A DNA stretch of 64,000 nt, taken from NCBI GenBank assembly GCA_021234155.1, contig JAJEKV010000003.1:29805166-29869165 (forward strand). Direction: 5' to 3'. A program made the position numbers and the translations under genes. Shown one piece after another: positions 590 through 58,337 of the stretch; within the stretch, counting starts at the first letter, position 1, and the number at the start of each line of letters is the position of its first letter. The notes under the pieces are model-generated. The model made no database searches and was not told the DNA's origin. It saw only the letters and a list, made by a program, of their open reading frames with translations. The stretch is from Isoetes taiwanensis (Eukaryota > Streptophyta > Lycopodiopsida > Isoetales > Isoetaceae).

Positions 590-1383
590 ATAATAGCCCA
601 GAGCTTGCTGCGAATGACCCATTTTGTTACCTCTCTGCTGATATTGTGCTCTATAAAACTAAAGGACAGGTTTATGTAATAGGCGACATGAATGGCAGGC
701 TCAAGAATAAGCAAGCTACTGTTTTGGCTCATGAAGGAAATCATTTGTGGCTTATGGAACAGACAGACCCTTTGTTGTCATGGCCTAGGACCTCTTATGA
801 TATGCATATGAATAAAATGGGAGAACACATTCTTGACTTATGTGAAGCACATGAATTAGTCGTGTATAATGGTGCTGCTGTATTTCCAGAATCCAACAAA
901 TACACATGTTTTCAGCCCAATGGAAATAGTACTGTGGATATGTTATTGGGAAGTCCAGAGATATGCACTTGGTGACTAGTTTTGAAGTTCTTCCTCAGCA
1001 TGAGGACTCTGATCATGCCCCTCTTGTCATAAAATACAAGATGAAAGTCAAATGTACGGGGAAAAGCAAAAAACAAGCCCCACCCATGTTTAAAGTGCAA
1101 TATAAACTTGATGGGCAATATGAGAAAGCAATTAATTCAGGCTTGGAAGGAACTCTTTGGCCTACAGATGATGTTGAAGAAATGCATACACTGCTTAAAG
1201 CAGTCCTATCGCAAGCCGCTGCAAGTGTCTTTGGACTTACTAAACCAAGGTCAGCTAAATACCATAATAAAAAGTGGTTTGATCACGAATGTATTATGGC
1301 AAAGCGCGCATTCCAAGCTGCTATAGACAAATGTGTTGCCAAGAGAGATTATAAGAATTTTGTTAAGCATAAAAAGCGAAAAT
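590..1383 (+). pseudogene. LINE-A, 5' fragment: APE-type endonuclease and start of the RT linker
   Basis: This is the C-terminal half of an apurinic-like endonuclease of a LINE. The nicking-enzyme motif GDMNG (a GDFN variant), then an NSTVDML block and a final SDHAPLV block appear in the expected order. The reading frame shifts near 965, just before the SDH block, so the copy is dead. The 5' end is truncated: nothing recognisable precedes the ADIVLYKTKGQVYVIGDMNG stretch. After SDH come the basic spacer and the FGLTKP...KKWFDHEC block shared with LINE-B. The frame is then cut at 1383 by the LTR element and resumes in register at 14350 after removal of one AAAAT copy. Confidence in the LINE assignment is high; the exact 5' border is uncertain. 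Confidence 0.85.
1379..1383. repeat. Target-site duplication AAAAT, left copy
   Basis: AAAAT immediately precedes the LTR terminus TGTGACG. The same five bases follow the right LTR terminus CGTCACA at 14350-14354. Removing one copy restores the LINE-A reading frame, which confirms the borders. Confidence 0.92.
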
Positions 1384-2948
1384 TGTGACGTTCCAAGTAT
1401 TTATACGGTATACGTATAAATATATGGGACACGTCACACGGTATAAGGCACGCCACCTGGGAGATGATAACCTAGGGGGTTGGCCACAATGGATTTAATT
1501 AGCTATGTTAACCAAATTATTAAGGATAATTATCAAAAGACATGTGATTAAGTCAAACCATAGTAGGAAGGCGCCATTTGGCTTCACCCGGGTGGCCAGC
1601 ATGAGGGTTGCTAAACTGGGCCACCAAAGGGCAGCGCCATCCTAGGATCAGGCCAATTTCGACCCAGCAAAATGCCAGGAGCAGCTGAGCGCTCAGGAAA
1701 TCGTTGCTGCTCGCCCCCAGATCGCCAAACACCCTTTCACTGTTGCTGTTACCCCGGAAGCACCCCTTGACAACGGGTCCAGCCGAAACTCTGGTTAGTG
1801 GTAGTTAAATTGCGTTTTGTAGAATAACACTCTAGGATTCTTTTCTGGATAGTTTTGGGTGAGACTAACCCTTCTCTGGTAATTAGGAATACTTTTCAAT
1901 TATGAATGATGCTCTGTTATGGGATGGTTGATGTCTCTATGAGTCGGTTTAGTCGTTCCAGTAAACAGGGATTAAAAGGGGGGGTAGAGGCCTCTGAGCT
2001 TGAGTTTAGAATGCTCCTAGTGCTTCCTGTATCACCCTAGTAGATTCGGCCTGTGCGCAAGAGCCCACCGGGTCATAGACGCTATGGTCTGGCTTAGCAC
2101 CAGATAAGGGACACAGTGGTGAAGTAGGGGGTGGGGTCTTGCACGAGCATAAAAGGCTCCTGAGACCCATACAGTGGGCTAGGCCTGATAGCCGGTCACG
2201 TGGAGGGCCGGGTATGGGTCTGACACTCCCTGGGTATAGTGGTGTGACCCGTATGGGGCACTTTGAGTAGAATTAGGGTGAGTAAGTCGGGTACGGATGC
2301 GGGGGTCGCTGATGCGGCACATATTCTCTAGCTCACCCACGACACCACTGTGATCCTGGAAGGGGACGCCTCCCCCACCTGCCTCATCGGACCAGGTGTC
2401 ATGAACCTGGAGTAGACTCAAAGGGTGATCCCTAGAGTCTGCGTCTCCGGAAGGCTATAGCGAAGCCATAGCGTGAATCGACCCATCTGCAAAGTGTGCA
2501 CAGGAGGGGCGGATGGAGTGGACAACCCTAGCCAATGTTCTATGCCAGCCCACGCCATGCCAAGATTCGGTCTGCCGAACTCCTGAGACCCAGTCGTCAG
2601 TCGCTCCCCCACTATAGTCTGAGCCGGGGTAGAACCTGAGGTTTGGGCGTTTTCTTAGTTCTAGATGCATATTCTTTGCCGTTGGTATTCAGATGGATGC
2701 GCCACCCTTCGTGGTGGTTATTTATATGTGAATTATGCTGTGTGCTAACCCTTGTATTCATGCTTCCGCGACGTAGGCGCCCATCGAAGGCGTGGGCCGA
2801 ATGACCCCTTCGTGTCCTTCTTTCGGCACCATAATATGGGTGTCCGGAATAGACGGAGGGCCCTGCTCGTGGCGAGATGGACGCCATGGGAGGGGAAAGT
2901 CCCCGTATGTATACGACCGGGGGTCATATATATTCAGGGAGCGTCACA
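1384..2948 (+). repeat. 5' LTR of the chromovirus
   Basis: About 1565 bp, beginning TGTGACGTTCC and ending GGAGCGTCACA, with a 7-bp inverted terminal repeat TGTGACG/CGTCACA. It matches 12806-14349 over its whole length. Relative to the right LTR it has an extra segment of about 29 bp near 1848-1876 and about 17 bp near 1780-1796, and it lacks short insertions present on the right. Open frames inside the LTR appear in both copies but look like chance frames with no recognisable domain. Confidence 0.95.
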
Positions 2949-2949
2949 G

Positions 2950-2962
2950 TGGTATCAGAGCC
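2950..2962 (+). other. Primer-binding site, initiator Met-tRNA type
   Basis: TGGTATCAGAGCC starts one base after the 5' LTR end. This is the standard complement to the 3' end of initiator methionine tRNA used by most plant Ty3/gypsy and Ty1/copia elements. It sets the direction of the element as plus. Confidence 0.95.
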
Positions 2963-3242: not shown

Positions 3243-3450
3243 GGTCAAGGGCAGGCCCGAAAACCAATTCGGGCGCCGCTTGCTTTTTGTCGTCTTGCAG
3301 TCAGGGTAGAAGAGCCGAAAATGCAGTCGGCGCCCGACCGGTCAGATGGGAGTCAACGCGGGCCTGCCAGGTCAACTCGGGCGCCGCTTGCTTTTCGACG
3401 ACCCCCAGTCGAGGCGGGAGCACGTATAATGCAGCCGGCGCCGACCGTAT
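3243..3450 (+). repeat. GC-rich leader tandem repeat (period about 108 bp)
   Basis: Two imperfect units in the untranslated leader. Each contains TCGGGCGCCGCTTGCTTTT followed some 55 bases later by a GCAGYCGGCGCC-type block (3324-3340 and 3431-3447). The units differ by point changes and small indels. The sequence can fold into strong GC stems. It lies between primer site and ORF1, where packaging and dimerisation signals of retroelements usually reside; that role is inference. Confidence 0.6.
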
Positions 3451-3734: not shown

Positions 3735-5093
3735 ATGGCCAACACCAAGAGCGCCCCTGACCCTTCCACCCTCAGCATAGTGGAAATTTACGCCATGATC
3801 GCCCGGTATATGGCCACAGACCCGGCCTTCATCGACATCCTTTTGGATGAGTTGGTGAACCGGTTCGAGAACAACGATAGGATTCCCTATCCTATCTATC
3901 ACTTCTCAGAGCCATTTCTGATCCTGCTGAACCTCTGCCAGCTCTCCTATACCATTGTCGAGCAACAGGACATCGTCATGATGCTCATTAAATTCTATCC
4001 TCCCGAACAGGAAGGGCACACCGAGGAGGAAGACATTAGAACGGAGGCCGACCGTGTCAGAGGCTTGGCCCGGGAGGATGACCACCGGGAAATAGAGCGG
4101 GCTGATACGGCCACTCGAGGAAGGGAGTATCGGTACCTCGGGGATGGCCTTGCCGTCATAGATGGTAGAGCAATAGAGGTTCCCCCATACCGTTGGCACG
4201 AGGATTCCAGCAGTTTTATATGGGGGGAAATCCCCGATATCAGCATAGACTATCTGACAACCATTCAGATAGATATGGGTCTGCGGCCACAGCGGTACCA
4301 GGCTGAGCTTCTTCGTCGAAGTGCAGCCCAACTTTTTGCTCAGATTCAAGAAGATCTGAGGAGGGCCCGGGAGGAACGGGAGAGGCTTGAACAGGAGGAG
4401 AAGGCTCGGCAGGATCAGCTGAACCCACAGGACGGAGGAGCATCAGGGAGTGGGCCGGGCCCAATCCCGACGCATGTGACCATTAAGCACCGGAGGAAGG
4501 GTGTAGCCCGAAAGACCGGCAGTCAGTATAAAGAAAAACTAAGGACTGTCGGGGCCTTTGGTAAGAAGGCGAGCTCCGATCGGAGGCAGCAGCGGGTAGA
4601 TAGCTCCCGACCGGCTGTTGGAGCTAAGACGGTGCCAGCACCGAAGGAGCCGCCTACAAAACCCGCCCCACAAAGGAAACCCCATCGGTACCGACCCGGT
4701 ACCGTGGCCTTGCGGGAAATCCGCAAGTTCCAGAAGTCCACACAGCTTCTGATACGGAAGCTACCCTTCCAGAGGCTGGTACGGGAGATCGCGCCGCAGT
4801 TCAAGACCGACCTCCGTTTCCAGACCTTTGCAATTTTGGCACTCCAAGAGGCTGCTGAAGCCTACTTAGTGGCACTTTTTGGTGACGCCAATCTTTGCGC
4901 GATCCACGCAAAGAGGGTAACCATAATGCCTAAGGATTTAGCCGTCGCCCGCAGGATTCGGGGGGAGCATCCTTATTTTGCAGGGCTCCGTATTGTAAAT
5001 ATTTTCTTTTGGTATTTAATAAAAACTTTTTATTTTGTATTAACAACTTATTTATTTTGTGTTAAATATGAAAAAATGCTGACGTCAGCCTAA
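3735..5093 (+). CDS. Accessory ORF1 with a C-terminal histone H3 fold
   Basis: An uninterrupted frame of 452 codons from the ATG at 3735 (context GCTATGG; the frame is open upstream but without ATG). Residues 1-105 are mostly apolar and helical and unrecognised. An acidic, charged linker follows. Residues about 190-228 form a Glu/Arg-rich coiled coil, and a Lys/Arg-rich stretch (about 255-310) replaces the H3 tail. Residues 315-412 (4677-4970) are a full histone H3 core, aligning without a gap to H3 K37-R134 with about 84 of 98 identities to plant H3.3 by hand. Kept are [17 protein letters not shown], the [11 protein letters not shown] segment (one change at its end), [11 protein letters not shown]110, H113, R116 and KRVTIMPKD. 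Changed are K36R, Y54F, E59Q, Q76P, D77Q, H87F, G102A, E105G, T107A, I124L, Q125A, L126V and R134H. The last 40 codons after RRIRGE are AT-rich and apolar and may be read-through. No H3 introns are present. The H3 identity is certain; the function is unknown. Confidence 0.9.
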
Positions 5094-5166: not shown

Positions 5167-6567
5167 ATGGCTGCCGCTGACCTTGTCGCTTGGTACCATG
5201 ACGGAGAGAAATGGGATCCGCAAGTCCCTTTCGACCTGCTGCGGCCTTTGCTATGCCAGCGCCTAGATCTCCTTGCCAATATGCAGAGGCACCCGGATTA
5301 CGCCGGATTCTTGGACTTCTACATGGAGAAAATGCTTCCTCTGTGTATTCCTCTTGGGGATCCTCCCCAACTGTATCTGGAGCGGGAGGTAGTCCGGGAG
5401 ATGTTAGGGGGAGACACCCATGCTTATGATGTCCTGAAGGGGAAGCGCCGATGGGGCAAACACCTGCCTGTGGTGCAGCATCAGGGGCGGTAATATCTGG
5501 AAGTTACCTTCGCCCTAGCCATCCTCATGGACCAATACGTCGAGGATGAAACCTTGCCTGTAGAAAAAGGCAAACTGCCTGAGTCTTCCGAGGAGGGGGA
5601 AGACGAACACATAGGTATGGGCGACTTCGCTCGTTGGAAACAGTTAGCGGAAGAGCTGCCACCGCGCCGTGAGCAAGCTATAGGCTTGTCAGGGTTAGAC
5701 GGCCTTCCAGTTATCTATCACCAAGGGCAAGAGTATCTTCTCTTGGATGATATTATCTGGACTTATCACATGGTGGCCGGATTTTGACGCAAGCGCAAAG
5801 GCCATGTGCTTTATGAGCTTGCGAAGTACTGTATGGACGATTTCATCGACTTCAATTCTACTGAGCTTCCTCCAGAGGTGCAGCAGCTGCTCCAGTTCCG
5901 CCAAGAGACCATAGAGCCGGAAGAGACTCTACTACGTCTTCTGGACTTCGTGTTGCAGGAGCCGGCCTCTCAGCCCTCACCAGATGCCTTCACGGCTATG
6001 GGACCTCACGTCCCAAATATCAACATGGTTGAGGTTCCCTCCGATTCAGATGACGAGGGAGAGGATTTATATCATAATCCTGCTCATGTGAAGGAGGAGC
6101 AACAGGAACTTAAGGAGGAAGAAGTCCCTATGGATTTCGATAAGGAAGTGGCTACGTCCGAGACCTCGCAAGGGAAGGTGTTGGGCAACCACCTTACCCG
6201 TTTCTTTTTGTCAGCCTTCCGACAGGGGCAAGTCCTTTTTATAGCCCGAGATTTAGGGCCAGAGGCTGAAGCTTCATGGTGGGCCCTCCGTGCTCTCTCT
6301 ACGTTGGCCGGCCACAAGAAGCTCCCCTATCGTACGTTTACTTATGTACTCGTGCGACGGGATCTTGCTCTGACGGCCTTGGGTCAGGACATTGTGCCCT
6401 GAATGAGCATGAAGCTCCTCACGGCAGCCCCATTGGCCGTTGCCTATCCACCAGAGGTTGCATCTATTGCGGCTGCCACAGTAGACCCCGGGGTGACTCT
6501 GCTGCGACACCGACCGCCTCCACCGCCTCCTAGGCCTACGGATGAAGAGGGAGGACCTAGCTCTTAA
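5167..6567 (+). pseudogene. Accessory ORF2, unknown protein, three in-frame stops
   Basis: One frame of 466 codons starts at ATG 5167 (GCCATGG) and runs to TAA 6565-6567, broken by TAA 5491, TGA 5785 and TGA 6400. Reading through the stops keeps sensible composition. The N-terminal third is Leu/Pro-rich with a FDLLRPLLCQRLDLLANMQ helix; the middle is acidic (PESSEEGEDEH; later PSDSDDEGEDLY and a Glu/Lys-rich stretch); the C-terminal part has a FFLSAFRQGQVLFIARDLG block and ends in a run of six prolines. I recognise no domain: no zinc knuckle, envelope-type membrane segment or histone fold. The position between ORF1 and gag and the matched GC content say it belongs to the element. Point mutation of a formerly intact gene explains the stops. 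Confidence 0.6.
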
Positions 6568-6795
6568 ACTAATTGTACTATGCATTTTAGTATTCCGTAC
6601 GGTTGTGGACCTTTGGTTTGGCAAATGCCTTAGCCATGTTATAATATGATATACCTTGTTTTCTCATTAAATATAGTTACTGTCTTGATAAGTATAAGTG
6701 AATTGCTCTTTTCCATGATGTCCTCTTCAAAGTATTGGCGTTTGGAATATATTGGAAGTACAGAATGTTCTATATTCATTTCAACTGTCTTGCAG

Positions 6796-7153
6796 AAGAG
6801 ACCCTTTGGGAATATGAGGAGAGGATTACCGACATGATCAGGAGGGATGATCCCGGGCCGCCAGAACAGGACTATGGCCAGAGATATGGCGAATATCCCG
6901 AATGGGATGAAGGCTATGAGATGGAACCCCCGCCACCAGGAAAGGGTTGGAGATAGTTAATATCCTTAGGGACAGAGCTTACAACGACCTCAAGCAGGCG
7001 TTGTGCCGTACCTGGGACTATTGGAGCATGTCCAGGCACGAGGCTTTCGAGGACGCCAACGACCACCTTTGGCAACTCTTCTATGCTCTGCGGAGGCTTT
7101 TCAATCTTCTCATTGTTAGCCCAACGTGGGAATACCAACCAGTGATTGTCTAA
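6796..7153 (+). pseudogene. Accessory ORF3, unknown, one frameshift
   Basis: A short frame without an ATG begins at a good splice acceptor (TGTCTTGCAG ends at 6795). It encodes an acidic, Pro/Glu/Tyr-rich segment (ERITDMIRRDDPGPPEQDYG ... EPPPPGKGW), then shifts frame near 6950 into a helical stretch with the motif CRTWDYWSMSRHEAFEDAND and LWQLFYALRRLFNLL, ending in TAA at 7151-7153. No family is recognised. It may be a 3' exon of ORF2, since 6568-6795 is AT-rich like an intron, or the N-terminal part of the gag precursor. The call as coding rests on composition and codon texture only. Confidence 0.4.
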
Positions 7154-7498
7154 GCCTGGGCACGCTATAAGCTCATTAGGGCTGTACAGGAGAGTGTCCG
7201 CTACTCGATCCTATACCCCTTTGCGAACCCCTAGGCTTGGTCACTCCAGTTATGTTTTTTTTGTTGTTGTTACGTTGTGTGCGAGTAGAACTTTAAAACT
7301 TCCACTGTATAATACCTCCTTTTGTGCCAACCTATGTACCAATCAACTTGTCGTTGTACTCAACTTGAATGGAATGAAACATCAGTTTCTATTTGTACTT
7401 TTTCTTGTCACTGTCAGCAAATGTTATCTAAATGAAATTGTATGTTACTGTAAGTCTGCTTATACTTTCATGAATGCTCGATATAGACGGTGCACGCA

Positions 7499-8639
7499 AT
7501 GCCGCCTGACAAACGCCCTCGAATGCTAGTAGGTTGACACCTGAACAGGAACTCATGTTAATGAAAAGGCAGCTAGGCGAGTTGCAAGCCTATGTATTGC
7601 ATGTCAATCCACCCCAGCACATACAAGAGGACGGGCCGGAGTTACCTCCGCAACCACCTAGCCCACCTACACAGCAACCGTCCCCACCAGAAACCAGCCC
7701 TGTACCTGTATAGAGGAAGCTTCATGCCAAACGTCGTCGGAGTTCCTCCAAGGATAGCGCCACCTCCTCGCAATCGGCCACTTCTGGGTCCTCTGCGTCG
7801 TCTGCATCGTCTAGTGATCATACGAAGCGTCGGGACAAGGAGTACCGTAAGACGGTTGATACCGCCATAACTAGCATATGGAAGAATAGGAAGTTGGCCC
7901 AGTTTGATGGAAAATCCAGAGGCGAACTGAATGCAGAGTCTTGGTTGGACAAAATGAAGGAGTTCGGGAAGTCTTATGGCATGACGGAAAAGCATACAGG
8001 AAAGGTTGCCACTACCAATCTTACAGGAGCTGCCCGTATTTGATGGAAGGGCTATGCCAGAGCCAAGCATTTGGACAGGAGCAGATGCAACTTCAGAAAG
8101 TTTGCCAAGGCCTTTAAGTCGCATTATGTGCCCCGTGCGCACAAATGCCAACAGATCCAGACTTTCTACAGGTTGGAGCAGAAGAGTATGTCCGTACAGG
8201 CTTACACGGATGAGTTTATGCGCCTGAGGCTGTACCTGGTATGAATGAGAAAAGGGCAGTGGAAGGCTATATTGAGGGATTGGCACCATCAATCAAACGG
8301 ATGGTTAAGGCCATAGACCCAAAATCAGTTGCAGAGGCAGAGGCTAAAGCATTGAGCCTCGAGGAGGACACGCCAAAGAACCAGTATCCACGTCCTGCGC
8401 CTTACTCGCAGCCACGGCCGTCCACACCTTACAGACCCCGCTCGCCAAGTCCGGGACCCTCTCAACAGAACTCTTATGGTCGCCAGGAAAAGAAAGTCGC
8501 CTTTAGCACGCCAGATAAGCAGAACAATGCCGGTAAGAAAGTTCAGAACCTCTTACAGTCCATTCCTAAAGAGGCCCGTGAACAGCTCCGCCGAGATAAG
8601 GCATGCTACAGGTGTATGAGGCCAGGGCACTTCATGTAG
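7499..8639 (+). pseudogene. gag: gag (capsid/nucleocapsid) of the chromovirus, disrupted
   Basis: The frame probably starts at ATG 7499 (MPPDKRPR). A Pro-rich N-terminus and a Ser-rich basic stretch precede the capsid region (LAQFDGKSRGELNAESWLDK ... TNLTGAARI.WKG ... FKSHYVPRAH), then a Pro-rich linker and a CX2CX4HX4C zinc knuckle near 8606-8645. Lesions are a frameshift near 7535, TAG at 7711, TGA at 8041 in place of a conserved Trp, a frameshift near 8235, and TAG at 8637 inside the knuckle. After the last stop the same frame runs straight into pol, so gag and pol were one reading frame, as in many chromoviruses. Confidence 0.85.
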
Positions 8640-10709
8640 AACTGCCCTTATGTCACGCAGACTGCCCAGCTGGCCATGGCCGACCTCGACTGGGATGATC
8701 TCGAATCAACACAACCTGTCGAGGAGGAAGCTCCCGATTACATTCACGGTGCGTCTCATATCCTTGCAGCTATAGAAACCAGCAATGCTGAAAGTCAGCC
8801 TGCTGTTATTTCTACCATAGGCCAAATAGACAGGAAGCCTTTTGTAATTCTTATGGATGCGGGCAGTACACATAATTTTGCTTCTCCTAGGATGGCCCAT
8901 GTCTTACGTCTAGAAACATTGAGGTCCCGACCGAGACCTGTCACTCTAGCCAGTGGTAAAGTCAGACATACCCATGGCCGCCGCATCAATCTCAACATGC
9001 AACTCCCAGGTGCACCGGTTGCTTTGGGTGCTGAATTGATGGATATTGGCAAATATGACCTCATTGTTGGTATGGAATTCCTGGCATCCGCAAAAGCGAA
9101 CATAGACTGCGAGAAGAGAGAAGTTACCTTCAATGCAGCTAATGGAGCTCGCGTAACTGTTAAAGGTGAACCTTTCAACCCTATCCTGCAGTCTATGTCC
9201 ATCAGGCAGTTAGATAAAGCTATACACAAGGAAAAGCTCCTTTACATCGTTATGCTTGCTTCCATCGAGACGGATGCTAAGCAAAAACAAGTAATTGACG
9301 CCCTCCCAGAGGGGATTGCTAATCTTCTCCGCGAATTTGGTGATCTTTTTCCGGATGAGATTCAGAAGCTTCATCCTTTTAGAGGGGTGGAATGTGAAAT
9401 AGCTTTAGAACCAGGTACCAAGCCTACCAGTAAGGCTTCGTACCGTATGAGTCCTCCAGAATTGGCAGAACTTAAGAAGCAACTTCAAGAGCTATTAAAC
9501 CTAGGTTTCATCCGACCTAGTGTTTCACCTTTTGGCGCTCCTATTCTCTTCGTTAAGAAAAAGGACGGCTCGCTGAGGATGTGTATTGATTACCGGCAAC
9601 TCAACAAGCATACCATCAAGAATCGCTATGCTTTGCCTAGGGCAGATGACCTAATGGATCAGTTACAAGGGGCTAAGTATTTCTCAAAGATTGATCTACG
9701 CTCCGGATACCATCAGATAAGGATCAAGGAGGAGGACATTTATAAATCCGCTTTTCGCACTAGGTATGGGCATTATGAATTTACAGTTATGCCTTTTGGA
9801 TTAACTAATGCCCCAGCAACGTTCATGCGACTAATGAATGATGTCTTCCGACAATACTTGGATGATTTTGTTGTTATCTTCTTCGACGACATCCTCATCT
9901 ACAGTAAGACCCTTGAGGAGCATGAGAAACATCTTAGATTGGCCCTACAAAAGCTGAGACGTCATCAACTCTATGCCAAGTTCTCTAAGTGCAAGTTCGC
10001 CACTCCGAAGGTTGATTATTTAGGCCATATCATTTCCGCAGAGGGAATTGCTACAGACCCCGCAAAGATAGAGGCCGTAAGGGAATGGCCTATTCCAGGG
10101 AATGTTTCCGAAGTCCGGAGTTTCTTGGGATTAGCAGGCTACTATCGAAAATTTGTAAAGGATTTCGCGAAGATTGCAGCTCCTCTTACAAATTGGATGG
10201 ACCACTGGAAGACGAAAGTTCAGCAGAGTTTCCAGCAGCTTAAGGATGCCCTAACATCAGCACCAGTTCTCACATTACCCGATCCTGAACAGGATAAGCT
10301 AGTGGCGACAGATGCCAGTAAAATTGCCACTGGTGGGGTCCTAATGCAGGAGGGGAGAGTAATTGCCTACGACTCAAAGAAGATGAATGAGACAGAGCAG
10401 CGATATCCCACCCATGATCAGGAACTGTTGGCCGTGGTCCGTGCCCTGCGGATATGGAGACACTACCTTCTTGGAAGAAGATTCCAGTTGGATACGGATC
10501 ACCAAAGTCTCCGTTATTTATCTACCCAGCCGAATCTCAACCTCCGTCAAAGGAGATGGATGGAATTTCTCGAGGAGTATGATTTTGAGATTATGTATAA
10601 GCCTGGCAAGCACAATGTAGTTGCGGATGCTTTATCACGCCATCCCTTGGTGACCGAACCCATTGTAATGCCATTTCTACACTCACCAGTGAGTTTGGGA
10701 AACAGATAG
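8640..10709 (+). CDS. pol: pol: aspartic protease, reverse transcriptase and RNase H
   Basis: An open stretch with its first ATG at 8676 (677 codons from there). Protease: active-site DAGS at residues 61-64. Reverse transcriptase: [20 protein letters not shown], then [24 protein letters not shown] and the catalytic FFDD at 402-405, an unusual form of the F(I/L)DD seen in most plant gypsy elements. The thumb and LGHIIS block follow. RNase H: TDAS at 545-548, the DQELLAV glutamate and the TDHQSL aspartate. This part carries no stop, unlike gag and integrase. It ends at a frameshift near 10690, beyond which the pol polyprotein continues in another frame. The frame would need gag read-through to be expressed. 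Confidence 0.93.
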
Positions 10710-12239
10710 AGCAGACCTTGGCAACAGATCCAGATTTTTGTGACATTTGGGACAGTTTGGCTAAGGAAGCTCGCACGGATGCAGAACGCGAAGCTTTTCG
10801 TGCATATAAGAAGGAGGGCAACTTATTATATCACAAGGATAAGTTGTGTGTCTTAGAGACTTCAGGAGTACGGAAGCTCATTCTTCATGACACACACAAC
10901 AACCCTATAGCTGGACATGCAGGTTTTATGAAAACCTACTTTAAAATTCGCTCCAGTTATTTCTGGCCTTCTATGAAAAAGGACATAGCCAAATACATTA
11001 GGCAGTGTCAGGTATGCCAGCAAACAAAAGCGGAGCAGTTAAGGATTCCAGGCGAATTGCAACCTCTGGATGTGCCAAACGCCAAACGGGAAGTGATAAC
11101 CATGGACTTCATTGTGGGCCTTCCAAGAACTCTCCGGGGATATGATGCCCTAATGGTTGTGGTCGACAAATTGTCGAAAATGGCTCATTTCTTGCCATGT
11201 CGAACCACGGATACAGCCTTTGATACTGCTCTGCTATTTGCCAAGGAGATCTTCAGATTACACAGAATGCCACGGTAATTGTGTCGGATAGGGACCCCAA
11301 ATTTGTAAGTGCATTCTGGAAAGATTTCTTTGCCACCATCCAGACCAAGCTTGCTATGAGTACAGCGTATCATCCTCAAACAGATGGTCAGACAGAACGT
11401 ACCAATCGTATTATAGAAGATATGCTGAGAAGTTATGTGTGGAGTAAGCAATCGCAGTGGGCTGACTATATTTATCTGGTCGAGTTTGCTTATCACAGCA
11501 TGAAGCAGGAATCCTCCAGGATGTCCCCCTTTATGATAAATTATGGTTATCAATGCCTTACCCCAGATACATGGCATAACCCGTTTCTCAACAACTCCTC
11601 TTAGAGATGCAAGCGCTGGTCGAAGAAGTTCGTGATTATTTACTAGCGGCACGCAGTCGTCAGAAGAGTGTGGCCGACAAACACAGAACCCCACGCATTT
11701 TCCAGATCGGCGAATCAGTTTGGCTGAAGATTAAGGTAAAACAAGCCAAGCTTAAGATTGGTAACTGTAAGAAGTTGGCACCCAGGTGGGCTGGACCGTT
11801 CAAAATTATTGACCGTGTTGGAGAGCAGGCATATCGCTTGGATTTGCCGCCCCGATTAAAGATCCACAAGGTCTTTCATGTGAGTCTTCTGAAGCAACAC
11901 ACCCCTGATCCAGAGGAGGTTTTGGAGACCCCAACCCTCCTAGAAATGACGGAGGAGCAACTCGAGATAGTCCCTGAAGCTCTTCTTGATCGGGCTTACA
12001 AACAAACCAGAAGGACTCAAATGTTGCAATACTTGGTTAAGTGGAAACACTTACCAGTTGAGGATGCTACGTGGGTGATGAAGATAGACCTTGACAAGCA
12101 TTATCCGGATTTCATGCGTGAATCTCAAGGCCGCACCATCAACGATGTTATCAACCCCGCAGTCAACGGTAAGCTTAGAAACCTAAGTACCAAGGCTGGC
12201 GCCTTAGAGGGGAGATGCATCGTAAATAATAACAAGTAA
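10710..12239 (+). pseudogene. Integrase with GPF motif and C-terminal chromodomain, two frameshifts
   Basis: Pieces in three frames form one integrase. The first has the HHCC zinc finger (HDTHNNPIAGH ... CQVC) and the first catalytic Asp (TMDFIVGLP). After a frameshift near 11275, VSDRDPKF gives the second Asp, and the Glu lies in GQTERTNRIIEDML. A second frameshift near 11600 leads to the SVADKHR block, the GPF/Y motif (RWAGPFKIIDRVGEQAYRL) and, at about 11980-12120, a chromodomain with YLVKWKHLP and DATW, the core strand and aromatic positions of chromovirus chromodomains. The frame stops at 12239. The chromodomain is known in this group to steer integration to marked chromatin. Integration by this copy would have needed integrase from elsewhere. 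Confidence 0.9.
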
Positions 12240-12792: not shown

Positions 12793-12805
12793 AAGGAGGG
12801 GAGAA
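12793..12805 (+). other. Polypurine tract
   Basis: AAGGAGGGGAGAA directly abuts the right LTR start TGTGACG. This is the usual plus-strand primer of plant chromoviruses. Confidence 0.92.
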
Positions 12806-14349
12806 TGTGACGTTCCAAGTATTTATACGGTATACGTATAAATATATGGGACACGTCACACGGTATAAGGCACACCACCTGGGGGATGATAACCTAGGGG
12901 GTTGGCCACAATGGACTTAATTAGCTATGTTAACCAAATTATTAAGGATAATTATCACATGTCAAGTCAAACCATAGTAGGAAGGCGCCATTTGGCTTCA
13001 CCCGGGTGGCCAGCATGAGGGTTGCTAAACTGGGCCACCAAAGGGCAGCGCCATCCTAGGATCATGCCAATTTCGACCCAGCAAAACGCCAGGAGCAGCT
13101 GAGTGCTCAGGAAATCGTTGCTACTCGCCCCCAGATCGCCAAACACCCTTTCACTGTTGCTATTACCCCGGTACAGCCATGGAAGCACCCCTTGACAACG
13201 GGTCCACTGGTTAGTGGTAGTTAAATTGCGTTTTGTAGAATAACACTCTAGGATTCTTTTCTGGATAATTAGGAATACTTTTCAATTATGAATGATGCTC
13301 TGTTATGGGATGGTTGATGTCTCTATGAGTCGGTTTAGTCGTTCCAGTAAACAGGGATTAAAAGGGGGGGTAGAGGCCTCTGAGCTTGAGTTTAGAATGC
13401 TCCTAGTGCTTCCTTTAACACCCTAGTAGATTCGGCCTGTGCGCAAGAGCCCACCGGGTCATAGACGCTATGGTCTGGCTTAGCACCAGATAAGGGACAC
13501 AGTGGTGAAGTAGGGGGTGGGGTCTTGCACGAGCATAAAAGGCTCCTGAGACCCATACAGTGGGCTAGGCCTGATAGCCGGTCACGTGGAGGGCCGGGTA
13601 TGGGTCTGACACTCCCTGGGTGTAGTGGTGTGACCCGTATGCCCGTATGGGGCACCATGCACTTTGAGTAGAATTAGGGTGAGTAAGTCGGGTACGGATG
13701 CGGGGGTCGCTGATGCGGCACGTATTCTCTAGCTCACCCACGACACCACTGTGATCCTGGAAGGGGACGCCTCCCCGACCTGCCTCATCGGACCAGGTGT
13801 CATGAACCTGGAGTAGACTCAAAGGGTGATCCCTGGAGTCTGCGTCTCCGGAAGGCTATAGCGAAGCCATAGCGTGAATCGACCCATCTGCAAAGTGTGC
13901 ACAGGAGGGGCGGATGGAGTGGACAACCCTAGCCGATGTTCTATGCCAGCCAACGCCATGCCAAGATTCGGTCTGCCGAACTCCTGAGACCCAGCCGTCA
14001 GTCGCTCCCCCACTATAGTCTGAGCCGGGGTAGAACCTGAGGTTTGGGCGTTTTCTTAGTTCTAGATGCATATTCTTTGCCGTTGGTATTCAGATGGATG
14101 CGCCACCCTTCGTGGTGGTTATTTATATGTGAATTATGCTGTGTGCTAACCCTTGTATTCATGCTTCTACGACGTAGGCGCCCATCGAAGGCGTGGGCCG
14201 AATGACCCCTTCGTGTCCTTCTTTCGGCACCATAACATGGGTGTCCGGAATAGACGGAGGGCCCTGCTCGTGGCGAGATGGACGCCATGGGAGGGGAAAG
14301 TCCCCGTATGTATACGACTGGGGGTCGTATATATTCAGGGAGCGTCACA
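12806..14349 (+). repeat. 3' LTR of the chromovirus
   Basis: About 1544 bp matching 1384-2948 throughout and ending CGTCACA before target duplication AAAAT. Small differences from the left LTR include a short duplication near 13640-13660 (cccgtatg repeated) and loss of the TAGTTTTGGGTGAG segment. Confidence 0.95.
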
Positions 14350-16550
14350 AAAATGGGAAAGGGAACACTTGCAAAAACTTCTAGATGATATTGCAGTGGA
14401 TCCAAAATGTTTTTGGACAAACTGCAACATCCCATTGAATTGGGAGAGATCGCACAGGAAAGTCTGCTTGAATGGATAAGAGAATTATACACTGTTGCTA
14501 ATAGCAATGAAATGCAAATTGGTACTGCCTATACTACACTCTTTGATAAGAGTGATGTTACATATGCTTTACAAAGGATGCAAAATGGGAAGTCCTTAGA
14601 CCTAAATGGGTACTGTGCTGAGCTGCTTAAATGGGGAGGTGATCTTTTAAATGATAAGTTGGTTGATATTTGTAACTTGGCTTTCCATTATGGCTTTCCA
14701 CAGGAATGGTATTTAAGCAAGGTGGTTCCTATTCATAAGTCCGGTGATAAAAACCAGGCAAGAAATTATCGGACAATTTTGGTTAGCAATGTATTTGCAA
14801 AACTCTTTGCAACTATGCTTGAGAGAAAGCTCTCTAATTGGGCTGATGAGAAGAACGAGCGCGCTTATGGACAAGCAGGTTTTCGCCATGACCATTCCAC
14901 TGTTGATCATTTAGTCACTTTACGGGTGACTAATGAAAGTGCAAAGGGTGCTAGACATAATCAGTTTATGGCCTTCATTGATCTAGCAAAAGCTTTTGAT
15001 AGAGTTGATCGAGGTGACTTGCAGAATAGAGAGCTGCTACAAGTTCCTCCAGAGCTCCAACAAGCAGTTGCGCGTCTATACCAACAGGTACTCATTGAAC
15101 TTTCATTTCCATTTAAAAACACTGAACAGGTCCAGAGCACGATTGGGGTGAAATAGGGGTGCCCTTGTTCTCCCACTCTCTTTGGACTTTATATTGATGA
15201 ACTAGAGGGGTGCTTGCACGTATGGGAGGAGTTGGAGTCAATGTTGGTAGATATCTCATACAAGTTTTACTTTTTGCGGATGATATAGTTTTGATTTCTA
15301 GAACTGCTGCTGGTCTCCAACATCATTTAGATACTCTTCAGGAATTTTGCGATAAAAAAGGTATGGCTATCAATGTTGCAAAATCTAAAGTCATGATAGT
15401 TGGCACAAAAAAAAATTTCGATTCACCATTGGGGAATGTGAGTTAGAAACAGTGCATAGTTATAAATACCTTGGAATAGAGGTAGCAAGTAATTATTTAT
15501 GGAAGCTGGCAGCTGAAAACCGCGCTTCTGGTGGGCTTAGAACCCTTTATGGTATGTTCCATACTTGTCGTGTGAATAACTTGTGGCATTGGAAACTCAG
15601 GAGATTACTTTATGACACTCAAGTTAAGGCAGTCGTTTTATATGGTCATCCCAGCTTGGGCCCCCGGACTTGATCGGCAAAAGCTGGGATAAGATTGAAA
15701 AGGTGCGTAAACGATTTCTCATGGAAGAGCTTGGAACTAAAATGCAACTCCATACTTGCATTATGCTTATGAAACTGGATTGATACCCCTTGAAACTGAA
15801 GCTTTATGCCGTACTATTACATATGTAAATCGGGTGAAATTGCTCCCTTGGATCGTCTCCCTTTCCGGGCTATCACAAAGAATCCAAAGTACGAGGATGG
15901 TTCTTCCAAGTGATTCAATGGGCGTAAAAAGTGGGGTGTAGATGATTCTCGGCGCTGATCAAACCAAACTAAAAAGAGGTACGCATGCAAATACTTCCAA
16001 GAGTCTTGGGCAAAATGTGGGATCCAAATGATATTCTTTGTGAAAAACTTTTATAGAGATGATATTAATAGTATGGCTGCATATGGAGAACAATCTTACT
16101 TGCTATCTAATATTAGCAGGAAAAATAGAATCTTGATTTCTCAGCTACGAACTTCCTCTCATCATCAGAACATTGAGACAGGAAGGTGGTATGAAACTCC
16201 TCGACATACAAGGTACTGCCCAAGCTGTCTTGACCCTAAAATTGAGTCAGAGGTACATACTTTTTTGGAGTGTCCTGCCTATGAACATATAAGAAGTAAG
16301 TATAACATTTCAGGATTCACATTGTCAGAGCTTTTTAATACGCCTCCAAATCTCCTTAGTTCATATCTCAAGGATGTTTGGAAGGAACGAGCTGACATAA
16401 TGGAGTTGTTTGTTAATATGGAAATACTTGAAGCTATAGGTGCCTTTGTTTAAGCGCCTTGTGGACTATATATCTTTTGTAATATTTTCGCCATATGGAC
16501 CTGAGGGTCTTAAATGGCATGATTAATATATTATTATTATTATTATATTA
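14350..16550 (+). pseudogene. LINE-A, 3' fragment: reverse transcriptase, zinc domain and tail
   Basis: This continues the frame broken at 1383. It shows the RT palm and fingers (KVVPIHKSGDKNQARNYRTI, GQAGFRHDHSTVDHL, FIDLAKAFDRVDR), then GVK followed by TAG at 15154 where LINE-B has a Gln codon, and GCPCSPTLFG. LLFADDIVLIS with the catalytic Asp pair lies near 15265-15300. More frame breaks occur near 15445, 15670 and 15945. The C-terminal CX2C...HX4C finger (RYCPSCLDPKIESEVHTFLECP) lies near 16215-16275. The element ends in a small hairpin (GGACCTGAGGGTCT), TTAAATG and an ATT-type microsatellite tail (16526-16550). About 60-70% similar to LINE-B by eye. Confidence 0.9.
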
Positions 16551-22666: not shown

Positions 22667-23105
22667 GTATGTTCACTTTTCTTTGTCTGGATTTTGGAGA
22701 AAGAACTTAAGTATTTGTCCTATCGTCTTATATACCAAGTCCCTGCCTTTGATTTCTGCTACTTCATTTTCTTTATCTGTCTACGGATAGAAATGTTATG
22801 GCCATTTATCCGCAAAAGATGATCACTTCCAAAATATAAAGGAAAACGAGTTTATCCTTTGCTTGGAGCAGCAAATTTTTCTGTTAGAAGCACTTAAAGC
22901 TTATAGCATGATCTATTTTGAAAGGGAATAATATGTTGAGAGTGTGTTTATGATTCTCTGAGTCATGATGAAAGCCTTGTAACATCAGGTTTCTTTATCG
23001 GGGTTGCATCTCTTCAAATAAGCATCTTGGATTCGCATCTCTCTTACCACATTAGGACATTTGATTTTGTTATTATGATCATTAGTCTTTTGACATGTTT
23101 GGACT
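22667..23105 (+). other. Start of RER1 intron or gene-fragment border
   Basis: The sequence follows the GTATGT donor and is pyrimidine- and AT-rich with no RER1 exon 2 homology. The 5' border of LINE-B lies in its last part; I could not find a clean target duplication. Confidence 0.5.
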
Positions 23106-25430
23106 ATGACATGGGATGGCAGTCAAGAAAGAAATATGCAGATTCAGCATTTGATACAGGATGTTGCATCCTCTGTTTTTGGATATACCAATCCACAGGG
23201 AAAAAGGAAAAAAGATAGTAAATGGTTTGATAGAGAATGCTTTGATGCAAAGAGGACATTTAAACAGAGTAAAGGGGTACAAGATCTGAAACATTATAAG
23301 AATATAGTAAAAAGAAAGAAAAGAGAATGGTTACGGCAGCATCAAGAGACGGTCATGAATGAACAGGAGATAGACACAAAAAAGTTTTTCAACAGATGCA
23401 AGAAGCATACGGGCATGGGTAATATACAAAGAGATGATCTCTTTAATTTGGTAAAGGCCTTATATCAGACTATTCAGGTAGAGGGCTTTACACGTAGTGG
23501 TGAGACATCATTGCTTTTTACACGCACAGATGTTTCTGATGCGCTTAGAAACATGGCAAATGGCCGAGCAAGTGATTCAAATGGGTTGACAATTGAGCTT
23601 CTAAAATGGGGAGGATCCAAGTTACATGAAATTCTTGCTGACCTATGTAACGATGCCTTACAAAATGGATTTCCTGATACATGGTGCTTAAATAGGATTG
23701 TGCCTATTCATAAAGCTGGTAGCAGAGATGATGTGCGGAATTATCGGACCATTTTGGTAAGCAATGTATTCGCTAAATTATTTGCATCTATGCTAGAACG
23801 GAAGCTGTCTCTATGGGCAGATGAGAATGATACTCGGACCGTTAGTCAAGCAGGTTTTAGAAGTGACCACTCCACCTTGGACCATCTGGTTACGCTGCGC
23901 GTATTGTCTGAAAGTGCAAAGGGTGCTGGTAACAAAAGATATCTTGCCTTTATAGATCTCACTAAGGCTTTTGATACATTTAAGAGGAAGGATCTTGCAT
24001 GCAGATTGGAAATGCTACAAGTTCCAGAGGAGCTTCGTCATGCAGTTGCGTGCTTATATGACAGGGTGTTAGTAGAACTATCTTTTCCATTTACAGGGCC
24101 AGAAAAGGTGCAGAATACGATTGGGGTAAAACAAGGTTGTCCCTGTTCGCCAACTCTTTTTGGGCTGTTCATAGATGAACTAGAAAATTGGATGATGAGA
24201 CTCGGAGGGCTGGGAGTCCATTTGGGAAGGTATGCTTTGCAGCTTCTGCTTTTTGCTGATGATATTGTATTAATCTCAAAGAACCCAGCTGGATTGCAAC
24301 GTCATTTAGATGTATTATGTGGCTTTTGTGAAGAAAAAAGCATGAGGGTAAATCCTGATAAATCAAAGATAATGATACTAGGAGGTCGGGATACCACAAT
24401 TTTTTACATAGGTGGTGTTCCGCTTGAGCAGGTTACGAATTACAAATATTTAGGAATTGAAGTGTCAAATAACTATAAGTGGACATTGGCAGCCCAGAAA
24501 CGTGCATCAGGTGGTCTCAGAGCATTTTACAGTATGATGAATCAATGTAAAATTAACAACTTTGAACATTGGCGACTAAAGAAGCTCCTTTTTGGGATAC
24601 AAGTCAAAACAGTAATTCTTTATGGAAGCCCGGTTTGGGGGCCAGGTTTGTCTTTAAAGGGGTGGAGCGATATAGAGAAGATACAAAAAAGATTCTTGAT
24701 TGGTGAATTGGGAGTCAAGGTGCAAACTCCTTATTGCATGATGTTGGCTGAAACAGGTCTACTACCTCTTGAAGTAGAGGCATTGTGCAGAACCATTTCA
24801 TTTGTTAATAGGGTTCTAGATATGGACACTGAACGGTTACCTTACCAAGCCCTTATGCATAGCACAAAAGGCTGGTATGCTGATGTTAAGAGATGGGCAA
24901 GGAAATGGCTTGATGATGACAATTGGCCGCTATCCCGGAAATTTGAAGATATACATGATTATGTGGCTGCACGGGCAATTCGTAAGCTTTGGCGAGTAGA
25001 GGATGATAAGGATGTGAAAAAAAAGTTTTATTTGGCTAATCTAAATGATCTGGCAGAGTATAAAGAGCAGCCTTATCTACTCTCATGTATCAGCAGGAAG
25101 AAACGCATGCTTATTTCGCAAATGAGATTGTCATCTCATAACTTGCGAATTGAGACTGGTAGATGGGACGACACACCTCATAATGAGCGGTTTTGTCCAA
25201 GTTGCTTAGAACCAGCTATTGAAGATGAAGAACATGCACTCTTGAAGTGCACAGCATATGAACAGGTAAGGGCTCGTTATGGCATTACAGCTTTAACACT
25301 TGGTGAACTCTTTCTTTTGCCTGCACATACTTTGTATTCATATTTTAGAGATCTTTTGAAGGAAAGAGAAGACATAATTGAGCTTTTCACTCTTATGAGT
25401 AATTTTGATATTGAAGGCGCTCTGAATTAA
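23106..25430 (+). CDS. LINE-B: reverse transcriptase ORF, 774 codons, uninterrupted
   Basis: A 5'-truncated LINE with an intact frame from ATG 23106 to TAA 25428. It starts at the RT linker (ASSVFGYTNPQG ... KWFDREC), so the endonuclease is missing. RT motifs follow in order: NRIVPIHKAGS...NYRTILVSNVFAK, QAGFRSDHSTLDHL, FIDLTKAFD, GVKQGCPCSPTLFG, LLFADDIVLI (catalytic Asp pair) and a KYLGIEVS block in the thumb. Near the C-terminus is a CX2CX8-9HX4C finger (RFCPSCLEPAIEDEEHALLKC). Without endonuclease it is not autonomous, but RT coding is preserved, which argues for a young insertion. It sits just downstream of RER1 exon 1. LINE-A, C and D are relatives. Confidence 0.93.
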   Translation: MTWDGSQERNMQIQHLIQDVASSVFGYTNPQGKRKKDSKWFDRECFDAKRTFKQSKGVQDLKHYKNIVKRKKREWLRQHQETVMNEQEIDTKKFFNRCKKHTGMGNIQRDDLFNLVKALYQTIQVEGFTRSGETSLLFTRTDVSDALRNMANGRASDSNGLTIELLKWGGSKLHEILADLCNDALQNGFPDTWCLNRIVPIHKAGSRDDVRNYRTILVSNVFAKLFASMLERKLSLWADENDTRTVSQAGFRSDHSTLDHLVTLRVLSESAKGAGNKRYLAFIDLTKAFDTFKRKDLACRLEMLQVPEELRHAVACLYDRVLVELSFPFTGPEKVQNTIGVKQGCPCSPTLFGLFIDELENWMMRLGGLGVHLGRYALQLLLFADDIVLISKNPAGLQRHLDVLCGFCEEKSMRVNPDKSKIMILGGRDTTIFYIGGVPLEQVTNYKYLGIEVSNNYKWTLAAQKRASGGLRAFYSMMNQCKINNFEHWRLKKLLFGIQVKTVILYGSPVWGPGLSLKGWSDIEKIQKRFLIGELGVKVQTPYCMMLAETGLLPLEVEALCRTISFVNRVLDMDTERLPYQALMHSTKGWYADVKRWARKWLDDDNWPLSRKFEDIHDYVAARAIRKLWRVEDDKDVKKKFYLANLNDLAEYKEQPYLLSCISRKKRMLISQMRLSSHNLRIETGRWDDTPHNERFCPSCLEPAIEDEEHALLKCTAYEQVRARYGITALTLGELFLLPAHTLYSYFRDLLKEREDIIELFTLMSNFDIEGALN

Positions 25431-27245: not shown

Positions 27246-28519
27246 ATTATGTATTCTCCATGTATTATGATGTGCCTAATGTCCATGTAATTCATAAAAG
27301 CATGTAATTTTCGTGCATGTTCTATGTACTTTATGATGTGATAGTGATAACTATGGTCTGGAGGTGGGTTATCATATAACTAATTAGGTTATCACATAAT
27401 TAATTATAAACTAATTAGATTATCATAGACACTATTCGCAAAATGCATGATTTTATGCATACTTTGACTGCTACCTCACTTGTAGAGCGAAATACACTAA
27501 AGCATTGCGACATGATTTAGATAACTTACAAGGAATATTGTACCACCCTTGCAGTTGTATTCAGGTCTACACTTATTGTAGTGAGTGCCAATTGAGATGT
27601 TACAGCACTTAGAAGCCTTCATTGCTTGTAATTGTAGTGCTCCCTGTATTCCTTGGCAACTATCTTATCCATCTTTTCTATGAGTGCCTTTGCTGCTTCT
27701 ACTGAGTGTTGCCCATAAATGACTATGTAGCGAACTGTGTCGCTCTTCTTCAGGTCATCCGTGTCTTCCATGGATAGGGCTTGTCAGCACTTGTGTCCCA
27801 CATGGGGGGATGCACTTATTAATAAAAGGGTGACATCTAGATTCGAAGAGTGCCCAAAAATATCCCTAGTATATTGATCTTTGAATGCAAATTTAACCCC
27901 TAAAGTAAATATTTTGCCCTAGATAATGGAGAAAAACCCCCTATTGGTAAGTATACAAATACAAAATGGTAAAAAAGCATCCCCTTTATTGCATGCACAT
28001 GTTCCATACTGCAAAGAATACTGCAACAACAGTAGCATCAACAAAGAGGGGAAATCCTACCCAAAGCTCAGACGCATGGGAATCGACTGACGGCTTGGGG
28101 TCTCCAGAAGTCAATGCAGACAGAATTATGGCAAATGGATTTGCCTGGCATAAGAACATGGTTGTTGGGTTCCATCCGCCCCTCTTGTGCATACTTTGCA
28201 GTAGGTTAAAAAGTATTAAGGGTGTGACCGTAGCCTGCCGGATGCATAGTCAGAGGGACTACTCCTGGGTTGCATCTCGCCAGTCCCGATAGATCACTCT
28301 CCTCCAGAAGGTCCATGCCAACTATAGGCAAGCTAGAGAGCCACTGCTCATCTACGACTTAAACCCCATTGAGGCGACGCATCACCTAGGAGGTGTCGAG
28401 CCCATACCTTGCCCACACTCAGTGGCAAGCTATTAGGCTTAGCCCACAATGTTCCCCGGCCATTGTTACGCACCAGAGGGATGAACTGTAGCTGGACAAG
28501 CCTTCCTTATCAGCTGGTC
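27246..28519. other. No recognised gene
   Basis: Anonymous DNA. The stretch 28265-28520 has LTR-like GC content and precedes the repeat at 28520; it may be part of the same degenerate element. The 108-codon plus frame and 68-codon minus frame at 27966-28292 overlap and show no motif. Confidence 0.4.
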
Positions 28520-29165
28520 TAACCCTGCCACCCATGGCCAGGCGAGCTCCTATGCACGGGCCACATTTATTGGGTTCTAATGAGGCTACTTAGGAACATC
28601 ATCCACGAAGGCTCTGCGTCTCTATCTCCCCTCCCCAATACACAAGAGATGCAAACCGAGCAATACAATATCATCCAATGAACTGAAATAATCGAGTAAA
28701 GATCTAATCTATCTACTCTAATCATACATGGTTAGGTTCATTCGTTAGTGACTAAGGTTCTTAGGCTCTATAGGTCATCTACAGCTCAGAATGGATGTAA
28801 ATCTGGCCTAGTGCCAGTCAGAAAGCTGGCGTTGCATAACAGATCAACTACATACCGGATCCTTGGTCCATGTTGCCAGAATGGGCTGAGATGCTGGAGT
28901 CTCGACGATCCGCTTCAGAACGCGAGCTTCACTGCTGCTAGAAGGCTGAAATGAGTCGGGCGCTTGAGCAATACACGCTCCTGAGGCTGGAATCCAAAAA
29001 GGGGGCACTTTTAGGGTTCCTGCCTCTTTATGCCCATGTTTTAGGGTGAGGGTCTAATGCGCCATATGGCTCATATGGGGTATTGCCATGTGGCAATATA
29101 GAATATATTCACATGTTGCATAACATGTGCAATATAATGGGTTCTAATGGTTGTGCCCTATGGTA
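28520..29165. repeat. LTR-like repeat G, copy 1
   Basis: About 645 bp similar to 55365-56125. Shared landmarks include CTCCTATGCAC.GG, AGGAACATCATC, ACACAAGAGATGCA, CAATACAATATCATCCAATG, GAATGGGCTGAGATGCT, ATGAGTCGGGC, TTCCTGCCTC, CATATGGCTCATATGGGGTA and GGTACAACCCTTTA. This copy has the empty site for the MITE present in copy 2. It is probably a decayed LTR of a gypsy element read on the minus strand. Confidence 0.7.
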
Positions 29166-34900: not shown

Positions 34901-35170
34901 TATTAATGTCGTTTTCCACAATACATGCTTTTCTGATACTGCTATTCCTAATGTAACAGGCTAGCCCTGCGCTACCCCTTCCTATTTTGTAGTTCTTTTC
35001 CCTCCAACAGGTGAACAAATTGTAGCCTGGTTCATCTGGTAACCTCTTTGTGCTGTGCTCCCATGTCTCTACCAGACATATAATATCCTGGTCTCGTGCT
35101 TCGTTTAGGCGTTCTCCATCATCCCATGGATATCCCGTACAATTCCAGTACCAGATCGTTATTTCTTCCT
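31990..35170 (-). pseudogene. LINE-C ORF2: endonuclease, reverse transcriptase and zinc finger
   Basis: The frame opens at about 35170, overlapping the ORF1 stop in the -1 frame, with no early ATG. Endonuclease: DIICLVETWE (catalytic Glu), VGDINART, SSIVDYVIAN and a GHRPILL end where SDHxP is usual. A TGA at 34143 and TAA at 33570 interrupt the frame; the latter replaces the Tyr of NYRTI. RT: NKVIPLHKGG, GQAGFRPEYSTTDHL, FVDFKKAFDT, GVKQGCPLSPTLFG, LYADDLGMM. A frameshift lies near 32840 at a C run. The finger RICRICDSGKIEDEEHMVKEC is near the C-terminus. Otherwise it is in good order. Confidence 0.88.
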
Positions 35171-36217: not shown

Positions 36218-36900
36218 TCTTCTTTCTGTTGTTGTGGTGATTCCGCTTCGCTTATTTCCCTTCCCTCCGCTCGCTCTCTCCTACGGGCTTACTATATCTC
36301 GTTCCTTTCTTTATCCGTTTGGACCTTTTCCCCCATATTCCTTCAGTTTTGAATTTCAAAATTCGAATCATCCCATCTAAGATATGATTACTGGGTGTTT
36401 GTGTCCGCTATTTACTATCGGCGTTTTTATGGCTGCCCGTCAGATTCATATTCAATTCCCTGGATTCAGTAATTTTCGGTACCATCTGAACTGTTTTGTT
36501 TTCTTTGTATCCAATTTTGTTTTCTTTGTATCCTTTTGGGAGTGGTTTTTTGTGACTTTGGTGCACCAGCCGGAGGATTGGATCCTCGCTGTCCTGGTGT
36601 ATGGCCGGGGAGTTGCCTCCCACTATCCCGTACTTGGCAACCTCTGTCTTTCCACTTCCATTTTCATTTCCATTCTATGGGCCGGGTAATCTGGTGTCTG
36701 TTGTTTGGCAGTTGGCACCAGCCGGTGGACTATTTTTCCACTCTGTCCTGGTGTATGGCGGAGACACACGTCCCTCTGTCCCATAGCTTAGCCTTCCACC
36801 TTTTGCACCATTTACTCCTGGATCCCCTATTCTATCAGGGTTATGTTCCTCACTTCCTCGTATTTGTTACTTCCCTTGGAATAGTGGATTAAAAGATTTC
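36218..36900 (-). repeat. LINE-C 5' region with repeated GC block
   Basis: Two similar units lie about 153 bp apart: CACCAGCCGGAGGATTGGAT at 36563 and CACCAGCCGGTGGACTATTT at 36716. Each is followed by C(A/T)CTGTCCTGGTGTATGGC or a close variant. They resemble promoter monomers seen upstream of some L1 elements; that they belong to LINE-C is inference from position and base composition. Confidence 0.45.
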
Positions 36901-42488: not shown

Positions 42489-42721
42489 GTAGGGCAGCGA
42501 GAGCCCTCGTATTTGTATTTTGCACGTACGAAATCAACACCATATAGTATTCCGCTTGAAATCTTATAGTATTTTGTGAATCTTGTTATGCAGTATAGCA
42601 AATCTTGTACTTGCATACCCCACAAACGAGGAACTTTACGTACGGTGTAGATTAAGGAATAAGGGGTGAATATGCCTATCCAACAGCTCTCGTTGCCCGG
42701 AGTCACCCCCCGTGTGAATAT
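42468..42721 (+). mobile_element. Fold-back element F, copy 1 (about 254 bp)
   Basis: It is bounded by CATATTCACACGGGGGGTGAC and its exact inverse GTCACCCCCCGTGTGAATATG. The core of about 212 bp (GTAGGGCAGCGAGAGCCCTC ... GTTGCCCGGA) is almost identical to copy 2 at 45298-45552. No coding capacity. On the right it abuts P-module copy C directly. I found no clear target duplication. Confidence 0.8.

Positions 42722-58118: not shown

Positions 58119-58337
<219 letters not shown>

Follow-up and report, generated by a model that had tools for sequence, protein, structure and literature searches.

The window, by which we mean the whole 64-kb stretch of DNA analysed, contains a Ty3/gypsy chromovirus that is nested in a LINE and carries a histone H3 core. 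Both LTRs start with TG and end with CA, a 5-bp duplication (AAAAT) flanks the element, and the alignment of the LINE protein is restored across the junction once the element is left out. The LTR borders and matching target duplication claimed in the sequence-only reading of this DNA were thereby confirmed. LINE-type retrotransposons occur at 646-1388, 14389-15156, 23094-25430 and 31990-36280, one of them being interrupted by the H3 element; their Pfam matches are RT at 14407 and 23094 and endonuclease at 34146-35168. The parts of the element, with the basis for each assignment, are as follows.

1379..1383 (+): target duplication AAAAT, left copy (border analysis)
1384..2948 (+): 5' LTR, 1565 bp, TGTGACG...CGTCACA (border analysis)
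2950..2962 (+): primer binding site TGGTATCAGAGCC, directly after the 5' LTR
3265..3442 (+): leader with a 70-nt direct repeat, 74% (copies 3265-3334 and 3373-3442)
3735..4604 (+): ORF1 residues 1-290, with acidic first 190 residues, a charged helix and the start of the basic linker (codon phase)
4455..4676 (+): basic linker in the place of the H3 tail, residues 241-314 (composition)
4677..4970 (+): H3 core, H3 residues 37-134, with FAIL at 87-90 (PDB, Pfam, alignment)
4971..5093 (+): AT-rich frame end, probably read-through and not protein (GC, codon phase)
5167..6564 (+): ORF2, a second accessory ORF of unknown kind, broken (stops, codon phase)
6783..7250 (+): further broken coding-like pieces in two frames (frame inspection)
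7513..8638 (+): gag (assigned by position; its Ty3_capsid and zinc-knuckle matches are weak and under the cut-off)
8676..12239 (+): pol (protease, RT, RNase H, integrase zinc domain, SH3-like domain, chromodomain)
12793..12805 (+): polypurine tract, preceding the 3' LTR
12806..14349 (+): 3' LTR, 1544 bp (border analysis)
14350..14354 (+): target duplication AAAAT, right copy (border analysis)

Structure and relatives of the element

The primer binding site TGGTATCAGAGCC is taken here to be of the tRNA-iMet type. Between it and ORF1, GGCGCC is present near both ends of each copy of the 70-nt leader repeat. The Pfam matches in pol follow the order RVT_1 (E 2.6e-39), RT_RNaseH (E 1e-32) and then Integrase_H2C2 (E 1.4e-21), and no Pfam match to the integrase catalytic core was obtained in the broken pol pieces given. 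A chromodomain (PF00385, E 1.9e-8) is located at the integrase C-terminus. By eye, its tryptophan is kept and its first aromatic residue is not; the same is described for group II chromodomains in PMC3350952.

The RT part shows 61-64% identity to the best 40 rows, and its closest row in the tree, P0205, reaches 66%. Two RT trees were built, with midpoint roots for drawing only. The first included the RT of the window and 103 of the 120 relatives listed, namely those with more than 380 aligned residues, 17 being dropped; in it P0237 is the partner of the window's RT, and the pair lies outside the rows of angiosperms and pine, the pine rows being presumably those that bear the tag PITA. The second was built from 33 chosen relatives and one from Closterium, and 32 relatives were grouped in it (100/99), leaving out the window, P0237 and Closterium. 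The RT of the window falls outside the seed-plant rows in both trees, which contain no clade-named reference elements; we take this position to point to a host that is not a seed plant. Among known elements, this one most resembles the plant chromoviruses of the Tekay/Del type. It shares with them the LTR ends, the 5-bp duplication, the primer binding site, the location of RT and RNase H before the integrase, and the chromodomain, and differs from them in having two extra ORFs before gag, one of which contains the H3. Ogre is not a chromovirus, and the pol of Ogre/Tat elements is non-chromoviral; membership in Ogre/Tat was rejected, given that the element has a chromodomain. Ogre, also a Ty3/gypsy element, resembles it in having an extra ORF (550 codons) between the LTR and gag, whereas that ORF is described as being of unknown function (PMC1142308).

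ORF2 comprises 466 codons with strong codon phase (0 of 2000 shuffles as strong). GC-rich blocks alternate with AT-rich spacers in the region 5167-7250. ORF1 produced no match with ORF2 or gag, the best match between pieces (E 0.078) being that of two ORF2 pieces. Splicing between ORF1 and ORF2 was considered and rejected: there are intron-like steps in composition, yet only two donors scored above the cut, both elsewhere (8239 and 8533), in a simple scoring scheme. The order of primer binding site, H3 frame and gag proposed from the sequence holds, with the addition that the broken ORF2 (5167-6564) and the further pieces intervene before gag.

ORF1 and its H3 core

Positions 3735-5093 on the + strand form one open reading frame of 452 codons (ORF1). 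The Pfam Histone domain (PF00125) matches its residues 299-409 with E 5.6e-40, and the best solved chain is the H3.3 of PDB 7ux9_E (E 3.1e-51, among the best 60 of 182 distinct sequences with E up to 1). From 4677 to 4970, 98 codons line up with H3 residues 37-134 with no gap. In this alignment 84 of 98 residues equal those of the plant H3.3-type core and 14 are different, versus 16 different residues of 98 for the plant H3.1-type core. The changes are Y54F, E59Q, Q76P, D77Q, S86T, H87F (S87F against H3.1), V89I, G102A, E105G, T107A, I124L, Q125A, L126V and R134H. By sequence, the histone fold with alphaN, alpha1-3 and the H3-H3' residues is present, and the alignment bears out the claim that C110, H113, R116 and D123 are kept at the H3-H3' interface. 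The residues that we take to serve in H4 pairing, H3-H3' contact and DNA contact are mostly retained, with V in place of L126. In the AlphaFold model of the H3 piece with relatives the helices follow the H3 order, at low confidence (mean pLDDT 53.2).

Residues 87-90, which we take to be the surface read by histone chaperones, are FAIL in ORF1, HAVL in the plant H3.3-type rows and SAVA or SAVS in the H3.1-type rows. Position 36 is R. The H3 tail (residues 1-36, including K4, K9, K27 and K36) is not recognisable before the core, so ORF1 encodes an H3 fold and not a whole histone. Therefore the "complete H3 fold" of the sequence-only reading stands as a fold, given the Pfam and PDB matches, and not as a complete histone. 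A remnant of the H3 tail in the linker was rejected because 3125 of 5000 shuffles align as well. Hallmarks of CenH3 are a longer loop 1 and a strongly divergent fold; the identity of the core as CenH3 was rejected, since loop 1 is ungapped and the 84 of 98 residues are those of the plant H3.3 type.

Upstream of the core, residues from about 201 to 230 constitute a long charged helix, coiled-coil-like, and the linker (residues 241-313) contains 18 K+R versus 4 D+E. Residues 258-262 of the linker are ARKTG, and an ARK(S/T) motif arises in 316 of 20000 linker shuffles; mimicry of such a motif is suggestive only. By eye, the chromodomain of the element is devoid of cage residues able to read ARK(S/T).

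Codon phase was assessed with the leader as a control, which has no phase (640 of 2000 shuffles as strong). The phase is strong in the first 290 ORF1 codons (0 of 2000 block shuffles) and is detected in the H3 part (16 of 2000); it is weak in the linker piece 4605-4676 taken alone (80 of 2000) and absent in the last 40 codons (1365 of 2000). None of 5000 base shuffles of 3735-4676 remained open. Residues 413-452 (4971-5090) are AT-rich, with GC of 0.26. Because this stretch is AT-rich and without codon phase, 452 codons probably overstate the ORF1 protein, whose end lies probably near 4970-5000; the claimed gapless match of 98 codons is retained. Third-position GC equals 0.62 and 0.65 in the two main parts of ORF1 versus 0.45-0.53 in pol. 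Within the element, a single frame joins the H3 core to a coding N-terminal part that is an orphan.

For residues 1-290, none of 4587 length-matched candidates sharing words with them proved to be a relative (E up to 10), no match was found in Pfam, and PDB yielded only chance-level coiled-coil matches (best E 0.27). A pattern scan of IMG/VR for the same residues gave 10 stretches, none of which was confirmed. In the protein search with the whole ORF1, at least 7933 candidates were scored; every one of the best 120 of 4536 matches has the Pfam histone domain, and each covers 40% of ORF1 or less. Since residues 1-290 have no relative among the 4587 candidates, there is no sign of a widespread ORF1 family. 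Transposon ORFs are often left unannotated. The single-sequence AlphaFold model of ORF1 is of low confidence (mean pLDDT 42.7) and too poor to show the N-terminal fold.

Divergence of the H3 core and decay of the copy

The ORF1 H3 has K53, A96 and L90, as do the plant H3.3-type rows; in the animal rows, position 53 is R and position 96 is S or C. This composition supports a host-lineage origin of the H3 part. A viral origin is not favoured, as the pattern-based scan of IMG/VR for H3 returned one locus, a distant relative with 37% identity.

The two LTRs are 93.97% identical with gaps counted; besides gaps, they have 25 transitions and 12 transversions, that is, 37 differences in 1532 aligned bases. 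At this rate about 3.6 base changes are expected in the 294 bases of the H3 part since insertion, and at least 18 (summed over the 14 changed codons) separate it from plant H3 codons. The capture of H3 would therefore predate this copy, except if what was captured was a host variant that had already diverged. By these counts most of the H3 divergence is older than the insertion and arose either within the element or in a host H3 that had diverged.

The substitutions are mild, with a mean BLOSUM62 score of +0.5 versus −0.30 to −0.44 under neutrality; 46 to 135 of 4000 neutral simulations were as mild in six settings (P 0.01-0.03). Three of the 14 changed codons require two or three hits. Such multi-hit codons appeared in 1.1% and 1.9% of neutral runs at 20 and 22 substitutions, and in 5.8% and 14.7% when 25 and 30 substitutions were assumed. 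About half of the neutral H3 simulations at 20–22 substitutions were free of stops. The signals of constraint (divergence, mildness and multi-hit codons) agree, but they overlap and come from one sequence, so that together they are a weak indication. The same signals in H3 would be expected if the element had captured a diverged host variant late.

ORF1 is intact in the same copy where ORF2, gag and pol are broken. In-frame stops are located at 5491, 5785 and 6400 in ORF2 and at 7711, 8041 and 8637 in gag, which also has a frame change near 8238, and the frame of pol changes near 10707, 11276 and 11602. A changed genetic code was rejected, as the stops that break ORF2, gag and pol include TAA, TAG and TGA alike. 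The LTR age predicts 1.1 new stops in ORF2 and gag together and 0.47 in ORF1. With six in-frame stops in ORF2 and gag (5167-8638) against about one expected, part of the damage may predate the insertion, or the LTRs may have been converted; possibly an already defective template was inserted. The openness of ORF1 has P of 0.107, based on 11 disablements counted over the 2029 codons that make up ORF2, gag and pol, with the pieces at 6783-7250 left out, and is not significant alone. The stop at 8242 may merely follow from the frame change in gag, and with 10 disablements P equals 0.13.

No further copy of ORF1 (tblastn) and none of four gag, pol and ORF2 pieces was found in the 64-kb window. On the − strand, 27991-28632 contains two collinear pieces (61% and 67–68%) related to the LTR of the element, with no gag, pol, ORF2 or ORF1 piece match nearby. 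Judging from this similarity, the stretch is the LTR of an older relative.

Explanations for the H3 core and known parallels

The best explanation is that an H3.3-type host histone was captured before this insertion and kept as the C-terminus of an accessory protein encoded upstream of gag, to which we assign slightly less than an even chance. Retention as an accessory protein is plausible and somewhat less likely than the rivals combined. The earlier proposal of a captured host H3 agrees with the plant-like K53, A96 and L90; its second part, retention as an accessory protein, is supported indirectly, through one sequence.

The foremost rival is passive transduction, where an H3 transcript or processed pseudogene came to be in the element and rides along without a job. 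According to PMC3726574 and PMC7264820, rice and sorghum LTR elements hold 672 and 1343 captured genes; the rice captures are described as mostly decaying, and purifying selection is reported for a higher share of those in sorghum. The state of the present copy, which looks dead, the non-significant openness of ORF1 taken alone and the single copy seen are what a passenger would leave. However, the H3 is fused in frame to a long coding part, its substitutions are mild and include multi-hit codons, and its divergence is too large for the time since this insertion, so that we regard transduction as possible but on the whole unlikely.

Alternatively, a host chimera may have been captured, the H3 variant being already fused to the N-terminal part and the constraint being paid in the host. 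The GC-rich coding blocks (ORF1 and ORF2) with AT-rich spacers resemble a multi-part host gene, and ORF1 is unlike pol in third-position GC. Against this, none of the 4587 protein candidates matches residues 1-290, and no splice donor at the spacers exceeds the cut of the simple scoring; we consider such a chimera improbable. A decoy or dominant-negative H3 that absorbs H4 or chaperones and loosens silencing without entering nucleosomes is very improbable: FAIL at the chaperone site and the 314-residue extension could block proper assembly, but the DNA and H3-H3' contact residues, which a decoy would not need, are mostly retained.

Under the preferred reading, that of a captured H3 kept as an accessory protein, a lineage of plant Ty3/gypsy chromovirus would have acquired a host histone of the H3.3 type ahead of this insertion, and the H3 core would be the C-terminal part of the ORF1 accessory protein, encoded upstream of gag, in a copy that has since decayed. 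The core would pair with host H4 and be handled by host H3-H4 chaperones, and in this way become part of H3-H4 tetramers or nucleosomes. In place of the tail, on which the host writes silencing marks, would stand the basic linker and the orphan part, acting as a tag that belongs to the element. Such a tag could direct the particle or the integrase of the element to chromatin; alternatively, new DNA of the element could be wrapped in nucleosomes unable to carry H3 tail marks. A tentative suggestion that we hold to be rather doubtful is that the element supplies a nucleosome component of its own, in which a private N-terminal module replaces the tail; it would pack or mark the DNA of the element or dock the integration machinery, and the element would escape tail-written silencing.

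Single viral H3s are found in xenomavirus, DSLPV1, sylvanvirus and three metagenome viruses, according to PMC9145170. They share with ORF1 a lone H3 and, in three of them, a changed chaperone site (SAIL at 87-90 in xenomavirus, TAIL in two other viruses), their fold identity is 73–87%, and three of the six have extended tails; they differ in being carried by DNA viruses (PMC9145170). By likeness to them, the H3 of ORF1 would be loaded together with H4 of the host. The bracovirus CpBV-H4 is likewise a parasite histone that joins host nucleosomes and acts via its N-terminal tail, but it is an H4, belongs to a wasp DNA virus and is reported from experiments (PMC5423620). A captured domain kept through several replication rounds is also known from the orchid Gypsy elements with a 2-ODD (m6A demethylase) ORF, which is an enzyme and no histone and is known from several subfamilies (PMC9289625).

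Among the literature matches listed, which did not include subscription papers and preprints, no retrotransposon-encoded histone was recognised by title or start of abstract. The word "histone" is absent from the main text of PMC7264820, PMC5408684, PMC6338049, PMC11963269, PMC6431247 and PMC3726574, and occurs twice in PMC9289625 in other contexts. The viral-histone review PMC9145170 does not mention retrotransposons or retroviruses and uses "transposable" and "transposon" once each, in other contexts. As far as searched, an H3 inside a Ty3/gypsy element is undescribed; the earlier statement that no such family has been described agrees with the matches listed, to that extent only. Histone capture is already known from DNA viruses, and LTR retrotransposons live under histone-based silencing. 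If it also holds for LTR retrotransposons, it would give a transposon a direct route into the nucleosome itself and offer an immediate way to probe the writing of transposon silencing by H3 tails.

Elsewhere in the window, 42070-42521 and 45499-45950 constitute an inverted repeat with 452-nt arms, 96% complementary and 2977 nt apart, possibly a DNA transposon, with no clear target duplication by eye. An ATT microsatellite of 74 copies with 98% matches is located at 58115-58336.
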